A stretch of DNA of 42,313 bases from a virus, in IMG/VR virus record IMGVR_UViG_3300042691_011096, positions 1 to 42,313 of that record; one strand, 5' to 3'. Below, one piece after another: positions 21,654 through 41,528 of the stretch (positions are counted from its first letter, which is position 1; each line of letters begins with the position of its first letter). The notes beneath the pieces are model-generated. The model was not told the DNA's origin and did no database searches. It saw only the letters and a program-made list of their open reading frames with translations. The position numbers and the translations under genes were made by a program.

Positions 21654-22682
21654 TCAACAGTTGACCATTGGTTGCAGATTGATGCCCGCGCCGTGGATGT
21701 AGCGCTGGGTTACTGCAAGGCACTTGTGCCCCGCCCACTGCTGGATGGCCGGTGCCTGGTGGCCCTGGCTGGCCAGCTCGGTGATCCGGGTGTGCCGAAG
21801 GGTGTGGATGACCCATTCCTTCCGCACGGTGTCACCAAGGCCCAGGGCGTCGCACGCGTCGTGTTTCGCATCTGAGTAGTGGGTGAGGTAAGTCCAGTAG
21901 CGGATCGGGAAGACGCGCTGGGTCTTCCGGGCCTTCATCGCCTTGAGGATGGAGAGCACCTCCTCAGATGCAGGCAGACGGCGAGGCATGGAGCCCTTGG
22001 TCTTCACGAACTGGACCCAGCCCTGCTTCATGTCAATCCGATCCCAGGTCAGGTTGAGGGCCTCGCCCACACGGCATCCCATGTGGCGCAGGAACAGGGT
22101 GATGGCGATGGACAGGCGCTGCTCGCGCTTCTCCATGCCGTCCAACAGGGCCGCGAACCACTCGTCTGGGATGACCAGATCACGCGGCTCAGGTGTGCGC
22201 AGGGTGCGCTTCTCGGGCAGCAGCGGCGGCTGATCGATGTAGCCCAGCCGGGTGGCCCGCTTGAGCATGATCGAGGCGGCGCTGATGTACTTGAGGATTG
22301 TGGTGTTGCTCAGGGGCTCGCCCTTGGGGCCAGCAACCCGCAGCTCAGCCACCAGATCGTCAAGGCGGCGCATGGTGAGCTCCCTGATGTGGGTGTCAGG
22401 GCCAAGCATCCGCACCAAGCGGTGGGCGTTCTTCATCTGGGAGTCATCCTTCCCAGCCCAATCGATCTGCTCGCACACCCGAACCAGCTGACCCAGGGAG
22501 CCTTCACTGGTGGCCGAGAACGGCCGCTCGTGTGCTTTGACCTTGGGAGCCATGGCAGAGAGGGCCAGAGCCTCCCATTCAGTTGCCTCCGTTTCAGTGT
22601 CAAACGACTTGGAGATTCGACCGGTTTCAGTGGTGATCTGGGCGAACCACTTTTTGCGGTCATTCCTGAACCGTACTGCCAT
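21654..22682 (-). CDS. int: Tyrosine-family integrase
   Basis: 342 residues with the complete catalytic set: R204 (HMGCRVGEALNL), K229 (VKTKGS), H293 and R296 (HTLRHTR), H319 (GHK) and Y328 (TQRYIH). Residues ~60-150 form the SAM-like core-binding domain, and the first ~50 (VRFRNDRKKWFAQITTETGR) look like an arm-binding domain. It should integrate the genome at a host tRNA-Leu. The ATG is preceded by GGAG and lies inside the last 23 nt of the MarR-like gene, so the two are translationally coupled. The attP core follows at ~110 nt. Confidence 0.96.
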   Translation of the reverse strand: MAVRFRNDRKKWFAQITTETGRISKSFDTETEATEWEALALSAMAPKVKAHERPFSATSEGSLGQLVRVCEQIDWAGKDDSQMKNAHRLVRMLGPDTHIRELTMRRLDDLVAELRVAGPKGEPLSNTTILKYISAASIMLKRATRLGYIDQPPLLPEKRTLRTPEPRDLVIPDEWFAALLDGMEKREQRLSIAITLFLRHMGCRVGEALNLTWDRIDMKQGWVQFVKTKGSMPRRLPASEEVLSILKAMKARKTQRVFPIRYWTYLTHYSDAKHDACDALGLGDTVRKEWVIHTLRHTRITELASQGHQAPAIQQWAGHKCLAVTQRYIHGAGINLQPMVNC

Positions 22683-23010
22683 AAGTAATCATCTCCAATA
22701 AGTGAAGGAATTCGGAGCCCTTTTGTGTCAAATAGACCTGCTTGATCCGCTCGTCGTGCGGGTTGTCGCGTGTTTCCACCCATTGCATGGCCACTTGACC
22801 CTTGTTGTCGCTGCGGCCTTTTGAGCCCATAACGTCAACCGCTCGGGAGACGGCTGAAAGGGTCAAGCTGCATTCATTGGCAAGCTCTGACTGGGTTTGG
22901 CCAGGCCTGAGATGGATGGCTAGAAGCAGCTCCAGCTGGCTTGCGCGCAGCTGGGCGTGCTCACGACGGCAAAACCGCATTGCCGCGTGGAGCTTGGGCA
23001 GGCTTGACAT
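22660..23010 (-). CDS. MarR-like winged-helix regulator
   Basis: From ATG 23010 it has 116 residues. A helix-turn-helix (TQSELANECSLTLSAVSRAV) and a beta wing followed by the family pattern (DERIKQVYLTQKGSEFLHLL) indicate MarR-type DNA binding. An upstream TTG at 23034 is less likely. The start codon lies in one arm of a 10-bp palindrome pair, suggesting autoregulation. It overlaps int and is the best candidate for a lysogeny or early-gene repressor in this phage. No ligand is predicted. Confidence 0.82.
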   Translation of the reverse strand: MSSLPKLHAAMRFCRREHAQLRASQLELLLAIHLRPGQTQSELANECSLTLSAVSRAVDVMGSKGRSDNKGQVAMQWVETRDNPHDERIKQVYLTQKGSEFLHLLEMITYGSTVQE

Positions 23011-23072
23011 TGCAATGTGCTCTCGCAATGTCAACGTACGTCAAGCATTGACAAGATGGAACATTGCTTGAC
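23004..23072. promoter_or_regulatory. Palindromic operator cluster at the MarR-like gene
   Basis: TTGACATTGC (23004-23013) and GCAATGTCAA (23025-23034) are a perfect inverted pair with an 11-nt spacer. The palindrome CATTGCAATG overlaps the first arm. GTCAAGCA (23040-23047) and TGCTTGAC (23065-23072) make a second perfect pair with a 17-nt spacer, and ACGTACGT lies between. All share GTCAA/TTGAC half-sites. The cluster covers the start codon and leader of the regulator gene. Confidence 0.65.
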
Positions 23073-23962: not shown

Positions 23963-24032
23963 TGCAAGGTGCAACAGGGAGCCCAATGAGGCCCCTAGAG
24001 AAGCCCCGAAGGGCCTCCGTAGGAGCGTCAGG
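23963..24032 (-). repeat. Intercistronic two-hairpin repeat, copy 1 (diverged)
   Basis: Spans from TGCAAGGT to GGAGCGTCAGG. The first stem GGAGCC/GGCCCC and the second GAAGCCC/GGGCCTC each carry a mismatch compared with the other copies. It contains the stop codon of the upstream gene (24028-24030) and ends shortly before the start of the ribbon-helix-helix gene. Confidence 0.75.
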
Positions 24033-24288
24033 CAAGCGCTTCAATCTCAGCCTGCATTACATCCCGCTCGATTAATCGCAAGGCGCCAGCAGTCCAGCGC
24101 CGCTCGACTGGGTGGCCGGCTACGTCATGCAGTTCTTGCACCCAGTAGTCGGCGTGATCCGTTGCGCCTAGGGCATCAAGCGTGCGGATCCCGGCCCGTA
24201 TGTCAGCCATCAGCTGAGCGCTAGGAGCGGTTTCGACCGGCCAAAGTCGCACTGGCGTTGCGGTTGGGATAGCGGTGAGTTTCGGCAT
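24028..24288 (-). CDS. Hypothetical protein (86 aa)
   Basis: A soluble helical protein (LMADIRAGIRTLDALGATDHADYWVQELHDVAG, then ALRLIERDVMQAEIEAL). Its stop lies in repeat copy 1. Composition and length resemble small early or plasmid-type accessory proteins of cyanobacteria. No function can be assigned. Confidence 0.65.
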   Translation of the reverse strand: MPKLTAIPTATPVRLWPVETAPSAQLMADIRAGIRTLDALGATDHADYWVQELHDVAGHPVERRWTAGALRLIERDVMQAEIEALA

Positions 24289-24322
24289 GATTCAGCAGTT
24301 ACAAAGTGTGCGGCGTGGTTGA

Positions 24323-24595
24323 TCAGCGGATTGATGCGGTAGCGGTGAAAAGTGCACGGCCGGTGATCCGCGATTCGTGGCAGGTGATAGTGCCGATGAG
24401 GCCTTCGCGCTGCAGTTCTTGCGCAGCCTGCAGCAGGTCACCAACGCGGGAGAACATGCCCGAGAACCCGGCCTCTCCCTTCTCAGCCAGGCAGGCCAAC
24501 ACGTAGGACTGAGAAGGGCTGTGGTTGCAGCGGCGGGTTGATTCGGCCAGCAGGTGACGGGCTGTGATGCTGGCGTCAGTGGTTGCGGTGTTCAT
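24323..24595 (-). CDS. Hypothetical protein, possible winged helix (90 aa)
   Basis: The part PSQSYVLACLAEKGEAGFSGMFSRVGDLLQAAQELQREGLIG could form helices like those of a winged-helix regulator, followed by strand-like ITCHESRITGRALFTA. The start follows the ACCTTGCAACC box of repeat copy 2 by about 11 nt. The family is not certain. Confidence 0.6.
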   Translation of the reverse strand: MNTATTDASITARHLLAESTRRCNHSPSQSYVLACLAEKGEAGFSGMFSRVGDLLQAAQELQREGLIGTITCHESRITGRALFTATASIR

Positions 24596-24606
24596 TGATC
24601 TGTGGT

Positions 24607-24676
24607 TGCAAGGTTTACGTCAGGAGCCGGGAGAGGCTCCTAGGGAGGCCGCCAGGGCCTCTGAAGGAGCTTCAGG
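24607..24676 (-). repeat. Intercistronic two-hairpin repeat, copy 2
   Basis: GGAGCC/GGCTCC forms one perfect stem, and GCTCCT/AGGAGC with inner GAGGCC/GGCCTC forms a second that shares the middle GGCTCC segment. The two stems therefore exclude each other in part. It lies between the 24725 and 24595 genes, with the ACCTTGCA box at the downstream end. Confidence 0.8.
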
Positions 24677-24679
24677 AGA

Positions 24680-24710
24680 TTGCCTGCGCTCAGCTATTGA
24701 GCGCAGGCAA
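24680..24710 (-). terminator. 13-bp perfect hairpin, terminator-like without U-tract
   Basis: TTGCCTGCGCTCA (24680-24692) and TGAGCGCAGGCAA (24698-24710) pair fully around a 5-nt loop. It comes 14 nt after the stop of the 219-residue gene. No T-run follows on the minus strand, so it may instead stabilise the 3' end of that mRNA or pause transcription. Confidence 0.55.
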
Positions 24711-24724
24711 CAGAAGGGCAGCAT

Positions 24725-25384
24725 TCACCCGTAGAAAGGATCGGCAGGTTGCAGGCGAACGGCAAAGTTCACGTCCCGAAGCCTGGCCACGTAGCAGCCG
24801 AGCCGCTCACTCCAGGTGGGCTCAGTGTTGGGCCACAGAAGCTCCCGGATATGGCTGGTGGGATGCGAGCTCCAACCCTGGCCCATCTCATCGTTTGCAC
24901 GTTGAAGCTCGGGGTCCTCAAGCTTCGCCAGGTAATCCACAGAGTCTGGGTTGATCGGCTCAGCCCACCAGCCCACAACCCAATCCAGGAAGCCGGTCTC
25001 GGCCACGTTGTCAACACGGAACACCTGAAACGGGCCGTAGTTACCCCGGACGTCACCACCTAGGTGGGTTTCAACAACAATGAACACGTCATTGCAGTAG
25101 AGCCACTCACTGCGATCAACAGGAGCAAACACACTAAACACAAAGTTTTCAGAGAAGTCATTCTCAGAGTTGTAGGTATTGTCTCTGGTGACGTGCTCGT
25201 ATTGCTGGTGGGTCAGTCGGGCAAACCAGCGGCAAAGCGCATCTTCCTGTTCAGTGGCCCACCCGTCAGCTGCTAGGTGCTCTGGAAGCTGCAGGGGCTG
25301 GCCTAGGGATTGCTCCAGGTGTTGCGCGGTGTCAAGGGTTGGGCAATCCCAGAAGCGCGGATCAGCGGCAGCAATGGCAGTCAT
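24725..25384 (-). CDS. Hypothetical protein (219 aa)
   Basis: The largest early gene. It is acidic and Trp/Tyr-rich (DRSEWLYCNDVFIVVETHLGG, FLDWVVGWWAEPIN) with alternating strands and helices, suggesting one globular alpha-beta domain. I do not recognise the family; similar proteins occur on cyanobacterial mobile elements as far as I can judge from style only. It is framed by repeat copies 3 and 2. Confidence 0.7.
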   Translation of the reverse strand: MTAIAAADPRFWDCPTLDTAQHLEQSLGQPLQLPEHLAADGWATEQEDALCRWFARLTHQQYEHVTRDNTYNSENDFSENFVFSVFAPVDRSEWLYCNDVFIVVETHLGGDVRGNYGPFQVFRVDNVAETGFLDWVVGWWAEPINPDSVDYLAKLEDPELQRANDEMGQGWSSHPTSHIRELLWPNTEPTWSERLGCYVARLRDVNFAVRLQPADPFYG

Positions 25385-25393
25385 GGTCTCAAA

Positions 25394-25462
25394 TGCAAGG
25401 TTTCACGTTGGGAGCCGTAGAGGCTCCTAGAGAGGCCATGTGGCCTCAGTAGGAGCTTCAGG
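25394..25462 (-). repeat. Intercistronic two-hairpin repeat, copy 3 (best preserved)
   Basis: On the minus strand GCTCCTA, GAGGCC, GGCCTC and TAGGAGC form a nested stem with a small internal loop. Alternatively GGAGCC pairs with the later GGCTCC. The upstream gene's stop (25458-25460) lies within it, and ACCTTGCA stands 10 nt before the next ATG. Confidence 0.82.
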
Positions 25463-25691
25463 CCCGATCAGCCATCAGGTCAGCGCAGCTGAGCGCATAA
25501 CGAGCCAGGGCGTTGCCCTTAGATGAATGACCCCAGTTCTGCCTGGTGAAGATCGCCAGCGAGTCGCGCTTCTCATCAGGGGTGAACAGAGCCCAGATTT
25601 CATCGGCCTTGGCTGCCATGCCCTCAGTGATCGATCCAGCCACCACGGCTGCGTCAACCAGTTGATCCCATGTCTCTTGTGTGGTGTTCAT
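25458..25691 (-). CDS. First early gene of the left arm (77 aa)
   Basis: A soluble helical protein (WDQLVDAAVVAGSITEGMAAKADEIWALFTPDEKRDSLAIF). It is the first gene behind the promoter at 25741-25769. Its leader carries a shortened version of the repeat with the ACCTTGCA box. The first early genes of T7-like phages often inhibit host functions; nothing in the sequence tells which. Confidence 0.7.
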   Translation of the reverse strand: MNTTQETWDQLVDAAVVAGSITEGMAAKADEIWALFTPDEKRDSLAIFTRQNWGHSSKGNALARYALSCADLMADRA

Positions 25692-25700
25692 CGCTCAGGT

Positions 25701-25732
25701 TGCAAGGTCTCATCACGAGGCAACAGCGCCTC
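25701..25732 (-). repeat. Partial intercistronic repeat in the early leader
   Basis: It contains TGCAAGGT and a single small stem GAGGC/GCCTC, i.e. the downstream part of the repeat family. It makes up most of the 5' leader of the early transcript. A diverged further copy may lie at 25826-25865 (stem GAGGC..GCCTC then AGGAGC). Confidence 0.55.
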
Positions 25733-25740
25733 ATCCCTCA

Positions 25741-25769
25741 ATGAGATCACACCACTTGCCTCCTGTCAA
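25741..25769 (-). promoter_or_regulatory. Candidate early promoter of the left arm
   Basis: The minus strand carries TTGACA (25769-25764), 17 nt, then TCTCAT (25746-25741). The -35 is perfect and the -10 matches 4 of 6. The predicted start of RNA is ~43 nt before the first early gene. No better sigma70 site is seen upstream of this operon. Confidence 0.55.
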
Positions 25770-25997
25770 CCATGCACACCCCTCAACCTCTCCATAGGTG
25801 CCGAGCGCCGCGGATGGCCGTCCCGGAGGCGGCCGCCCTAGCGGCCGGCCTCAGGCCAGGAGCAAGCGAGCTCACCTCCTTCATTCCCTCCCTTCCCTCT
25901 CCCCTTGGTTGCATTTCCACCGGATCGCTCAATCTCACCCGCTCACACCACGCACCAGCTCTCTCTCGCCTCACCTCAAACCACACACCAAACCATT

Positions 25998-26041
25998 GAG
26001 TAACTCCTAAGTAACTCTTGAGTCACTCCTAAGTAAGACAG
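25998..26041. repeat. Four tandem 11-bp repeats
   Basis: GAGTAACTCCT, AAGTAACTCTT, GAGTCACTCCT and AAGTAAGACAG follow each other without gaps. The 11-bp period places each copy on the same DNA face, as for iterons or PhoB-type tandem operators. A hairpin (26037-26051) overlaps the end of the last copy. Confidence 0.8.
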
Positions 26042-39644: not shown

Positions 39645-41528
39645 GTGACCGCTCCTTCCTTTACTTACAGCGGAAACGTCTATACAGCGGCTTCGGCTGG
39701 CTCCGTCAACTTTGCTCTGACTTCGACCTCTGGCAATCCGATTGCCTACCTGGAGCGAGCTCATATCCACGTCTACAAAAGCGCCAATTCAGGCGTGACG
39801 TGGACTGAGCTCAGCAGACCGTCGCAGTGGGATTTTGTCAGCAGTGGCACTGTGGCCCGGCTTGCTGCTGGAATATCGGCAGGCGAATGGGTAAAGGTCC
39901 AGCGGATCACTCCGTCCGGCGCCGCCTACGTCACGTTCCAGTCGTCTGCGTTGCTGACGGCGGAGCAGTTGAACGACGACACGCTCTTCAACACGTATCT
40001 CAATCAGGAGATTGAGGACTTGTCGCGGCAGACCGTAGCCACGGCAGACGCGGCAGTCGTGACGGCGAACACGGCATCAACCAACGCAAGCAATGCAGTA
40101 ATCACAGCGAACGCTGCAAGTGCCGCTGTGGCCAGCAAGCTGAATAAAGCTGGCGACTCAATGACTGGCGCTCTGGATATGGGCGGCAACAAGGTCATAG
40201 GCGTCGGGGCACCGACTAATGCTGATGACGTTGCGACGAAGAGCTACGTCGATGGCTTCGTCTCCCAGACAGCCAACATCGCCAATAGCGCTGTCACCAC
40301 AGCCAAGATCGCGGACGCCAATGTCACCACCGGCAAGGTGGCAGATGGCGCCATCACATCAGCCAAGATCGCTGACGGCACAATCGCCACTGGCGATATT
40401 GGCAACCTCCAGATCACTAACGCGAAGATCGCCGACAGCACGATTACGTCAGCAAAGCTCACACCAGAGACTGTTGTTACCAGCTCTGAGCTGGCGGGGC
40501 TGACACCGGACAATGCCAGCTTCTACACAACGCTCGCGTCGGACAACCGCTACTTCCGGCAGGACAGTAGCGAGACGATCAACAGTGGGTTGCCCTGGAG
40601 TGGGAGTGACTCCTTCATCGCAACCACTGCCGCCATCGACGCCAGGATCATCGACCTGGTGGACGACGTTGGCGGGTTTGTCCCCATCGCCAGTGAGACA
40701 AGCTTCCCTCTCACTAACCCGGACATTAACAATCCAGACGGGGCGGGGACGATCATCAGCGTCAAGGAGATTGTCACCACAAGGACGCCCTCGTCCGGCA
40801 CGGTGACGATTGCGAACGGAGCAGGCAGCAATACCGTCACCATCACTGGCTGCGGCTCCACTGTCCTGGCGTCCGGCTTTGGCGTGCTGGTTGAAACAAC
40901 CTCGACCCTGCATACCTACACCTTCCACCGCCTGGTGCCGAAGGCCACGGAGGTGACAACCGTTGCCAGCATCAGCGGGAACGTCACAACGGTTGCTGGG
41001 ATCAGCGCAAACGTCACAACTGTTGCCGGGAACAACAGCAATGTCACCACTGTCGCGGCAAACATCGCTGACGTTCAGACAGTCGCCGCAGATCTGAACG
41101 AGCCAGTCAGCGAGATCGACACTGTTGCCACCAACATCGGCAACGTCAACACCGTTGGCACCAACATCAGCAGCGTCAACACCGTTGCTGGGTCAAATGC
41201 AAACGTCGGCACGGTGGCGACCAGCATTGCCAACGTGAACACGGTTGCGGGCTCGATTGGCAGCGTTAATACCAGCGCCGCCAACATCGCCAACATCAAC
41301 ACGGTTGCGACCAACAACTCAAACGTCACCACCTGCGCAACCAACATGGCGGCAATCTTGGCCGCACCAACCCAGGCGGCTAACGCGGCCACATCGGCCA
41401 CAAATGCCGCAAATAGCGCCTCCGCGGCGTCGAGTTTGGTGACGACCATCACCAATCTCTCCTACCTCCTCAACTGGGGCCTGATTACTGAGGCCGCAGG
41501 TACCTCATCTGATTACGGAGCCCTCTGA
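39645..41528 (+). CDS. Tail fibre with T7 gp17-type N-terminus
   Basis: GTG start at 39645. The first ~125 residues (IAYLERAHIHVYKSANSGVTW, TELSRPSQWDF, ALLTAEQLNDDTLFN) match the T7 gp17 anchor that binds the tail nozzle. A coiled or beta shaft follows with KLNKAGDSMTGALDMGGNKV and repeats TSAKIADGTI. Between residues ~435 and 565 there are over ten NVTTVAG-type repeats, coded by diverged tandem DNA repeats. There is no S74 domain, so the tip is probably the next gene's product. Confidence 0.92.
   Translation: MTAPSFTYSGNVYTAASAGSVNFALTSTSGNPIAYLERAHIHVYKSANSGVTWTELSRPSQWDFVSSGTVARLAAGISAGEWVKVQRITPSGAAYVTFQSSALLTAEQLNDDTLFNTYLNQEIEDLSRQTVATADAAVVTANTASTNASNAVITANAASAAVASKLNKAGDSMTGALDMGGNKVIGVGAPTNADDVATKSYVDGFVSQTANIANSAVTTAKIADANVTTGKVADGAITSAKIADGTIATGDIGNLQITNAKIADSTITSAKLTPETVVTSSELAGLTPDNASFYTTLASDNRYFRQDSSETINSGLPWSGSDSFIATTAAIDARIIDLVDDVGGFVPIASETSFPLTNPDINNPDGAGTIISVKEIVTTRTPSSGTVTIANGAGSNTVTITGCGSTVLASGFGVLVETTSTLHTYTFHRLVPKATEVTTVASISGNVTTVAGISANVTTVAGNNSNVTTVAANIADVQTVAADLNEPVSEIDTVATNIGNVNTVGTNISSVNTVAGSNANVGTVATSIANVNTVAGSIGSVNTSAANIANINTVATNNSNVTTCATNMAAILAAPTQAANAATSATNAANSASAASSLVTTITNLSYLLNWGLITEAAGTSSDYGAL

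Follow-up and report, generated by a model that had tools for sequence, protein, structure and literature searches.

A conserved structured RNA joint between the gene cassettes of a phage early operon

Successive small genes in a phage early operon are joined by a conserved structured RNA element, of which we found three full copies in the window, by which we mean the whole 42.3-kb stretch analyzed (42,313 nucleotides, a single virus record). The copies lie within a base of the positions given in the first-pass annotation and score 75 to 81 bits each with a covariance model (Table 1). Read on the minus strand, the window copies have the RNA layout CUGA-N-GCUCCU-N2-3-GAGGCC-loop-GGCCUC-N-CU-AGGRGCC-UC-N3-4-GGCUCC-N7-9-ACCUUGCA-N8-11-AUG, with small variations, and we refer to the sense-strand parts as S1 (GCUCCU), hairpin A (GAGGCC, a loop that is often UNCG, and GGCCUC), S2 (AGGRGCC), S3 (GGCUCC), and the box. 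The box, ACCUUGYA, follows S3 after 7 to 12 nt and precedes the AUG by 8 to 12 nt; a box ahead of each next ATG had been noted before and was found again, with a distance in the window of 8 to 11 nt instead of the 8 to 16 nt first given. Two copies hold the stop codon of the previous gene, as also noted, with a TGA in copy 1 (24030-24028) and in copy 3 (25460-25458); in copy 2 the equivalent place also holds a TGA, but the 219-aa gene ends ~50 nt earlier. Rather than a fourth copy, the supposed partial copy at 25701-25732 turned out to be a promoter leader, 5' of the first gene. With the element it has one hairpin, the linker, and the box in common, without the S1-A-S2-S3 fold, and its hairpin folds at the same place in relatives despite a different stem sequence.

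Table 1. Features of the early-gene array in the window; element parts are listed in reading direction
Feature	Position	Strand	Details
Sigma70-like early promoter, TTGACA-N17-TCTCAT	25741..25769	minus	Found by eye; many relatives have this layout ahead of their first early gene
Promoter-proximal leader	25701..25732	minus	Hairpin GAGGC..GCCTC and box ACCTTGCA
Early gene 1, 77 aa	25458..25691	minus	No family match; family c5, also in L051 and L031
Full element copy 3	25394..25461	minus	Read 25461->25394; covariance model 80 bits, folding, covariation
Parts of copy 3	S1 25456-25451; hairpin A 25447-25432; S2 25428-25422; S3 25416-25411; box 25401-25394
Early gene 2, 219 aa	24725..25384	minus	Weak match to phrog_11344 (unknown function), nothing else; family c2
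Hairpin Z, 12 bp	24680..24710	minus	3' region of the 219-aa gene, ahead of copy 2
Full element copy 2	24607..24675	minus	Read 24675->24607; covariance model 75 bits, folding
Parts of copy 2	S1 24670-24665; hairpin A 24661-24645; S2 24641-24635; S3 24628-24623; box 24614-24607
Early gene 3, 90 aa	24323..24595	minus	Family c9
Early gene 4, 86 aa	24028..24288	minus	MPKLT family c1; compact junction
Full element copy 1	23963..24031	minus	Read 24031->23963; covariance model 81 bits, folding
Parts of copy 1	S1 24026-24021; hairpin A (cUUCGg loop) 24018-23999; S2 23996-23990; S3 23983-23978; box 23970-23963
Early gene 5, 52 aa	23796..23954	minus	Ribbon-helix-helix (CopG/Arc-like); Pfam RHH_5, E 5e-12
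MarR-like winged-helix regulator gene, 116 aa	22672..23019	minus	Name from the MarR annotation at the same place in AP013549

Pairing of S1 with S2 lengthens hairpin A to a 16- to 17-bp rod with a 2x2 internal loop, and pairing of S2 with S3 is the alternative; since both pairings use S2, the stems are mutually exclusive. Such a choice for the central strand had been pointed out in copies 2 and 3, and we observed it in all three. In an alignment of 33 copies, 94% of the rod pairs were standard and 8 of the 16 pairs had changes on both sides; none of 500 shuffles did as well, and all measures dropped when the partner strand was slid. Because MAFFT misaligned S3, the S2:S3 pairing was tested by a position-free permutation, and after removal of near-identical sequences (35 copies left), permuted flanks never equaled the real ones for either S1:S2 or S2:S3 (0 of 20,000 each). 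The S2 strand occurs as AGGAGC, AGGGGC, GCAGCC, AGGAGG, GGGCGC, or AGGTGC, and S1 and S3 follow each variant, giving S1/S2/S3 sets such as GGCUGC/GCAGCC/GGCUGC (L031), CCUCCU/AGGAGG/CCUCCU (L058), and CCCC/GGGG/CCCC (L020). The early remark that the stems differ while their pairing is largely kept holds among relatives, and the concerted change of the three strands indicates that both alternative pairings are under selection. When the element alone was considered, the S1-A-S2 state was on average 2.8 kcal/mol better than hairpin A plus S2:S3, so that S2:S3 needs S1 to be removed. The mean fold z value was -3.2.

The loop of hairpin A is cUNCGg in 25 of 42 copies, and the sense-strand alignment holds 34 G-U cells against 9 A-C cells, with two columns carrying most of them. 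A functional DNA palindrome would not give an excess of G-U, so this excess and the loops point to a function at the RNA level. Action as an RNA element, which was one of the roles proposed at first, is therefore supported by the three-strand covariation, the tolerance of G-U on the sense strand, the UNCG loops, and the presence of the element in more than 20 related phage contigs.

The covariance model (R1) detected the element in the window and, of 32 records searched, in 24 related IMG/VR contigs. At E values below 1e-7 it gave more than 50 matches on the sense strand. Copies from the training set gave E values of 2e-17 to 7e-16, and a copy in L058, outside the training set, gave 7e-11 although its stem sequence differs; these values and the permutation tests exclude chance. 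It had been reasoned that absence of the element elsewhere and loss of pairing in relatives would point to recent simple duplication. If a neutral palindrome had recently been duplicated, its copies might be as alike as copies 2 and 3 (82% identity), but the pairing is kept by compensatory changes among the more than 50 copies, and this covariation already refutes duplication, to which we give practically no credence. The ~30 related contigs were gathered with a MarR alignment and with scans that used element patterns and the 219- and 77-aa proteins. The covariance model found no copy in the nearest named phage, and Rfam had no family at the gathering threshold; Rfam matches at relaxed thresholds were chance matches to unrelated families. 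A strict pattern scan of 84,980 species genomes gave two matches, in an archaeal metagenome-assembled genome and in Algoriphagus, and no cyanobacterial copy; both matches were taken as chance, the covariance model finding nothing at either locus.

Hairpins similar to hairpin Z of the window (GUUGCC...GGCAA) are present in L042, L043, L044, L045, L046, and L057, and hairpins of this type, with varying stem sequence, lie between the stop codon and S1 in ~14 junctions; their stems look compensated. In a distant relative (L061 3640-4480, MarR 46% identical), the ATG is preceded by a simple hairpin, the linker AACGTGA, and the box variant ACCTTACA, which suggests that the combination of hairpin and box predates the three-strand element.

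The array genes are on the minus strand, ahead of those for the MarR-like regulator, the integrase, and the RNA polymerase, and the array looks like a single operon. We infer that they are early genes from the gene layout behind the promoter-like site, which was missed by a sigma70 consensus scanner because TCTCAT is a weak -10 sequence. The genome codes for a T7-like terminase, a single-subunit RNA polymerase, a primase-helicase, and a tyrosine integrase. Among named records, the uncultured phage MedDCM-OCT-S39-C11 (Autographiviridae, Krakvirus; terminase 72% identical) comes closest and has the gene order MarR, integrase, RNA polymerase in common with the window, and the next nearest are Prochlorococcus podoviruses, at ~42%. 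Because of this kinship a cyanobacterial host is likely, and the name cyanophage, used in the first-pass annotation, probably applies. No match was found in named phages for the DNA of the array region or for the 219-aa protein. That a T7-like phage encoding an RNA polymerase of its own also has a tyrosine integrase gene (21654-22682) suggests a temperate life style. Elsewhere in the window, arrays of 30-bp repeats at 40965-41333 and 40269-40418 lie inside the last large ORF, which probably encodes a tail or fiber protein. The long gap between divergent operons contains tandem TAAGTAACTC/GAGTCACTC units at 25995-26040, with TAAGTAACTGC-like units in the corresponding gap of AP013549; these tandem units are possibly a replication origin or regulator sites.

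The second conserved feature of the array is the start box, ACCTTG(C/T)A, which begins 16 to 20 nt ahead of nearly all of 86 starts; essentially all of these starts belong to early genes, a few being chance matches outside the array. It has the form ACCTTGCA at 64 of these starts and ACCTTGTA at 17, and a G in a putative pairing partner (UGCAAGGU/URCAAGGU) would accommodate both C and T. None of the 86 boxed starts has a Shine-Dalgarno sequence, compared to 5 of the 29 other genes in the window. The box octamer occurs five times in the window, with ~1 expected, and four of these occurrences are at early starts. At gene 4 the box has decayed to ACTTTGTA, where orthologues show ACCTTGTA or ACCTTGCA. 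At the MarR-like gene the box directly abuts the ATG; several phages have a mutated form of it there, which in the window is ACATTGCA. A palindrome, TTGACATTGC...GCAATGTCAA or GTTGCATT...AATGCAAC, surrounds the box at this gene start (window 22985-23030, minus strand; L006, L007, L008, and L020) and is likely an autoregulatory operator. Element and box are separable, since the hairpin element is missing from about half of the junctions and no good box precedes the start codon at three or more elements (L007 2148-2211, L020 1329-1393, and L044 5650-5715). The AGGAGG form of S2 in L058 raised the idea of a standby Shine-Dalgarno sequence, which we set aside, the GCAGCC class having no such sequence.

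Among the 86 starts, 42 are preceded by the hairpin element, 23 by a compact junction, in which the stop codon usually lies 17 to 27 nt before the box, and 21 by a promoter leader. About 40 gene families occur behind these junctions, in an order that is ever different between contigs: the family of the 219-aa gene is found in six contigs with differing predecessors, and gene 3 is 89% identical to its counterpart in L046 over the first 90 nt, yet the junction in front of it differs. The ribbon-helix-helix family follows a full element in 10 of 10 contigs and is usually last in the array. Over 60 nt, some leaders are 87 to 100% identical and yet give way to unrelated genes just past the box (window/L042, L042/L030, and L021/L029), and conversely, genes that are 94 to 100% identical at their start lie behind unrelated upstream DNA, with identity stopping 0 to 4 nt before the box (L011/L021 and L042/L046). 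By these sequence comparisons the box is the usual exchange point, and the idea that the repeats are recombination boundaries has gained ground. Because each cassette starts at the same box, recombinants with breakpoints there stay functional, which accounts for the shuffling; a selected functional joint is enough, and a site-specific enzyme is not needed. Cassettes moved at the joint itself, as at attC or another site-specific site with the stems as folded single-stranded DNA, would fit the clear shuffling with its breakpoints at the box and the tyrosine integrase adjoining the array. We regard this as very unlikely, however, as attC boxes (R' GTTRRRY and R'' RYYYAAC) are absent on both strands, the breakpoints are at the box rather than in the stems and occur at stemless junctions as well, the G-U wobble and UNCG loops favor RNA, and the integrase matches ordinary phage integrase families.

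What the element does is addressed by a reading that we find plausible and put forward tentatively, in which the S1-A-S2 hairpin would be cut between cistrons, much as the RNase III sites of the T7 early region are, and S2 would then refold with S3. The cut would fall in the internal loop, at about UCU^AGG; the upstream message would end in hairpin A, its 3' cap, and S2, parted from S1, could pair with S3 as the 5' hairpin of the downstream message. This new hairpin would precede the linker and box in the layout of the promoter leaders, which hold a hairpin, linker, and box alone, and each cassette would thereby act as a first gene; the box, whose position is observed, is proposed to serve translation initiation without a Shine-Dalgarno sequence. 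Processing with refolding would account for both pairings, for their stability order, and for the leader layout, and T7 R1.1, folded for comparison, gave a lower stem, an internal loop, and an upper stem. RNase III processing needs no third strand, so the refolding is a guess to explain S3, and hairpin Z, at ~14 junctions, is left without explanation by the processing model. Further points against this model are a rod shorter than that of R1.1, with a symmetric internal loop, and the separability of element and box. It is possible, if doubtful, that the RNA family and start signal together form a standard cassette connector, in which processing and three-strand refolding would make each gene the equivalent of a first gene and ACCUUGYA would recruit ribosomes or a phage-encoded initiation factor.

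Attenuation or termination, suggested in the first-pass annotation, found no support, as there is no U-tract or terminator-like site at any copy, which makes termination unlikely, and no Rfam match. A terminator/antiterminator switch or an HK022 put-like antiterminator would share with the element its mutually exclusive stems or, in the case of putRNA, a length of ~70 nt with two stems (PMC9378689). But no T-run follows either stem, and putRNA occurs once per early transcript (putL and putR), while here up to four copies stand in series between genes; we consider an attenuator or antiterminator highly improbable.

Alternatively, a ribosome ending at the TGA might cover S1 and allow S2:S3, with S1-A-S2 forming otherwise, in a translation-sensing switch that would couple neighboring cassettes. 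In favor of such a switch, the upstream stop at about half of the junctions is 32 to 41 nt ahead of S2, inside the S1 side of the rod or immediately before it; the TGA itself pairs with UC(A) after S2; and the two states are separated by a few kcal/mol. At the other half, however, 64 to 86 nt separate the stop from S2, in most cases with a further hairpin in this interval, which is too far for a terminating ribosome to reach, and S1, S2, and S3 pair equally well there. The predicted folds also generally leave the box and AUG free in either state, and we think it unlikely that the element senses translation. The element and box might instead be bound by a phage or host regulator, for example in the lysis-lysogeny decision, with the stems as bound and free states and with the box right at the start of the MarR-like gene giving the opposite output there. 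Sequence is conserved beyond the needs of pairing (CUAC before hairpin A; CUAGG and CUC around S2), the box lies 8 to 12 nt before the early genes but touches the AUG of the MarR-like gene, and MarR, integrase, and ribbon-helix-helix genes adjoin the array, all in keeping with protein binding. Since no protein partner was found and the box of the MarR gene is mutated in several phages, the window included, we judge a binding role improbable.

Phage early genes are a main reservoir of small host-takeover proteins, and the array bears on how such genes can come and go while the operon stays intact. It shows a standard joint, with ~40 small gene families in more than 20 contigs sharing one connector and breakpoints at one 8-base box. 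The covariance model and the box provide a search handle for early-gene arrays of uncultivated phages. The three-strand RNA, with its strong covariation, is a test case for processing-coupled refolding, and the start motif is one that is not Shine-Dalgarno.

The closest known systems are the T7 intercistronic processing sites, the start-associated sequences (SAS/ESAS) of mycobacteriophages, and the promoter early stem-loops (PeSLs) of T4-like phages, and the element lacks a tested defining feature of SAS/ESAS and of PeSLs. PeSLs (Arbiol 2010; Comeau 2014) combine a stem-loop terminator with an early promoter and are regulatory stem-loop joints that accompany the shuffling of small early genes, as described in PMC4503421. 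Exchange at joints is seen here also, but the element differs, its copies having no terminator-like site and no sigma70 consensus site and the inner joints no promoter. The SAS of cluster K mycobacteriophages is a short, one-directional motif in the position of the ribosome-binding site of many nonstructural genes; inverted repeats (ESAS) precede a subset, upstream stops may overlap, and the motif is rare outside the phage group (PMC3203893). Like SAS, the box is directly upstream of starts in one orientation at the 86 starts, but the SAS consensus GGGATAGGAGCCC, which can pair with 16S rRNA, has the Shine-Dalgarno core AGGAG, which ACCTTGYA lacks. The ESAS repeats do not support RNA pairing according to their authors (PMC3203893), whereas pairing here is backed by covariation, and there is no sequence kinship. 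Integron arrays likewise have small genes, structured repeats (attC), and an adjacent tyrosine recombinase; here attC boxes are absent, the stems point to RNA, and breakpoints are at the start box. The HK022 putRNA of early phage transcripts binds the zinc-binding domain of RNA polymerase and antiterminates (PMC9378689), while our element is serial between genes, has mutually exclusive stems, and adjoins start codons. The T7 RNase III sites resemble the element in belonging to a T7-like phage, in placing a hairpin between successive early genes, and in the same stem-loop-stem plan, R1.1 consisting of a lower stem, an internal loop, and an upper stem (PMC6121014). Compared to R1.1, the element has a shorter rod, a symmetric internal loop, and a UNCG loop, and its cleavage is a prediction. 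To the T7 plan it adds S3 as a third strand in competition for S2, a start box at a fixed place downstream, and homologous copies at exchangeable joints.
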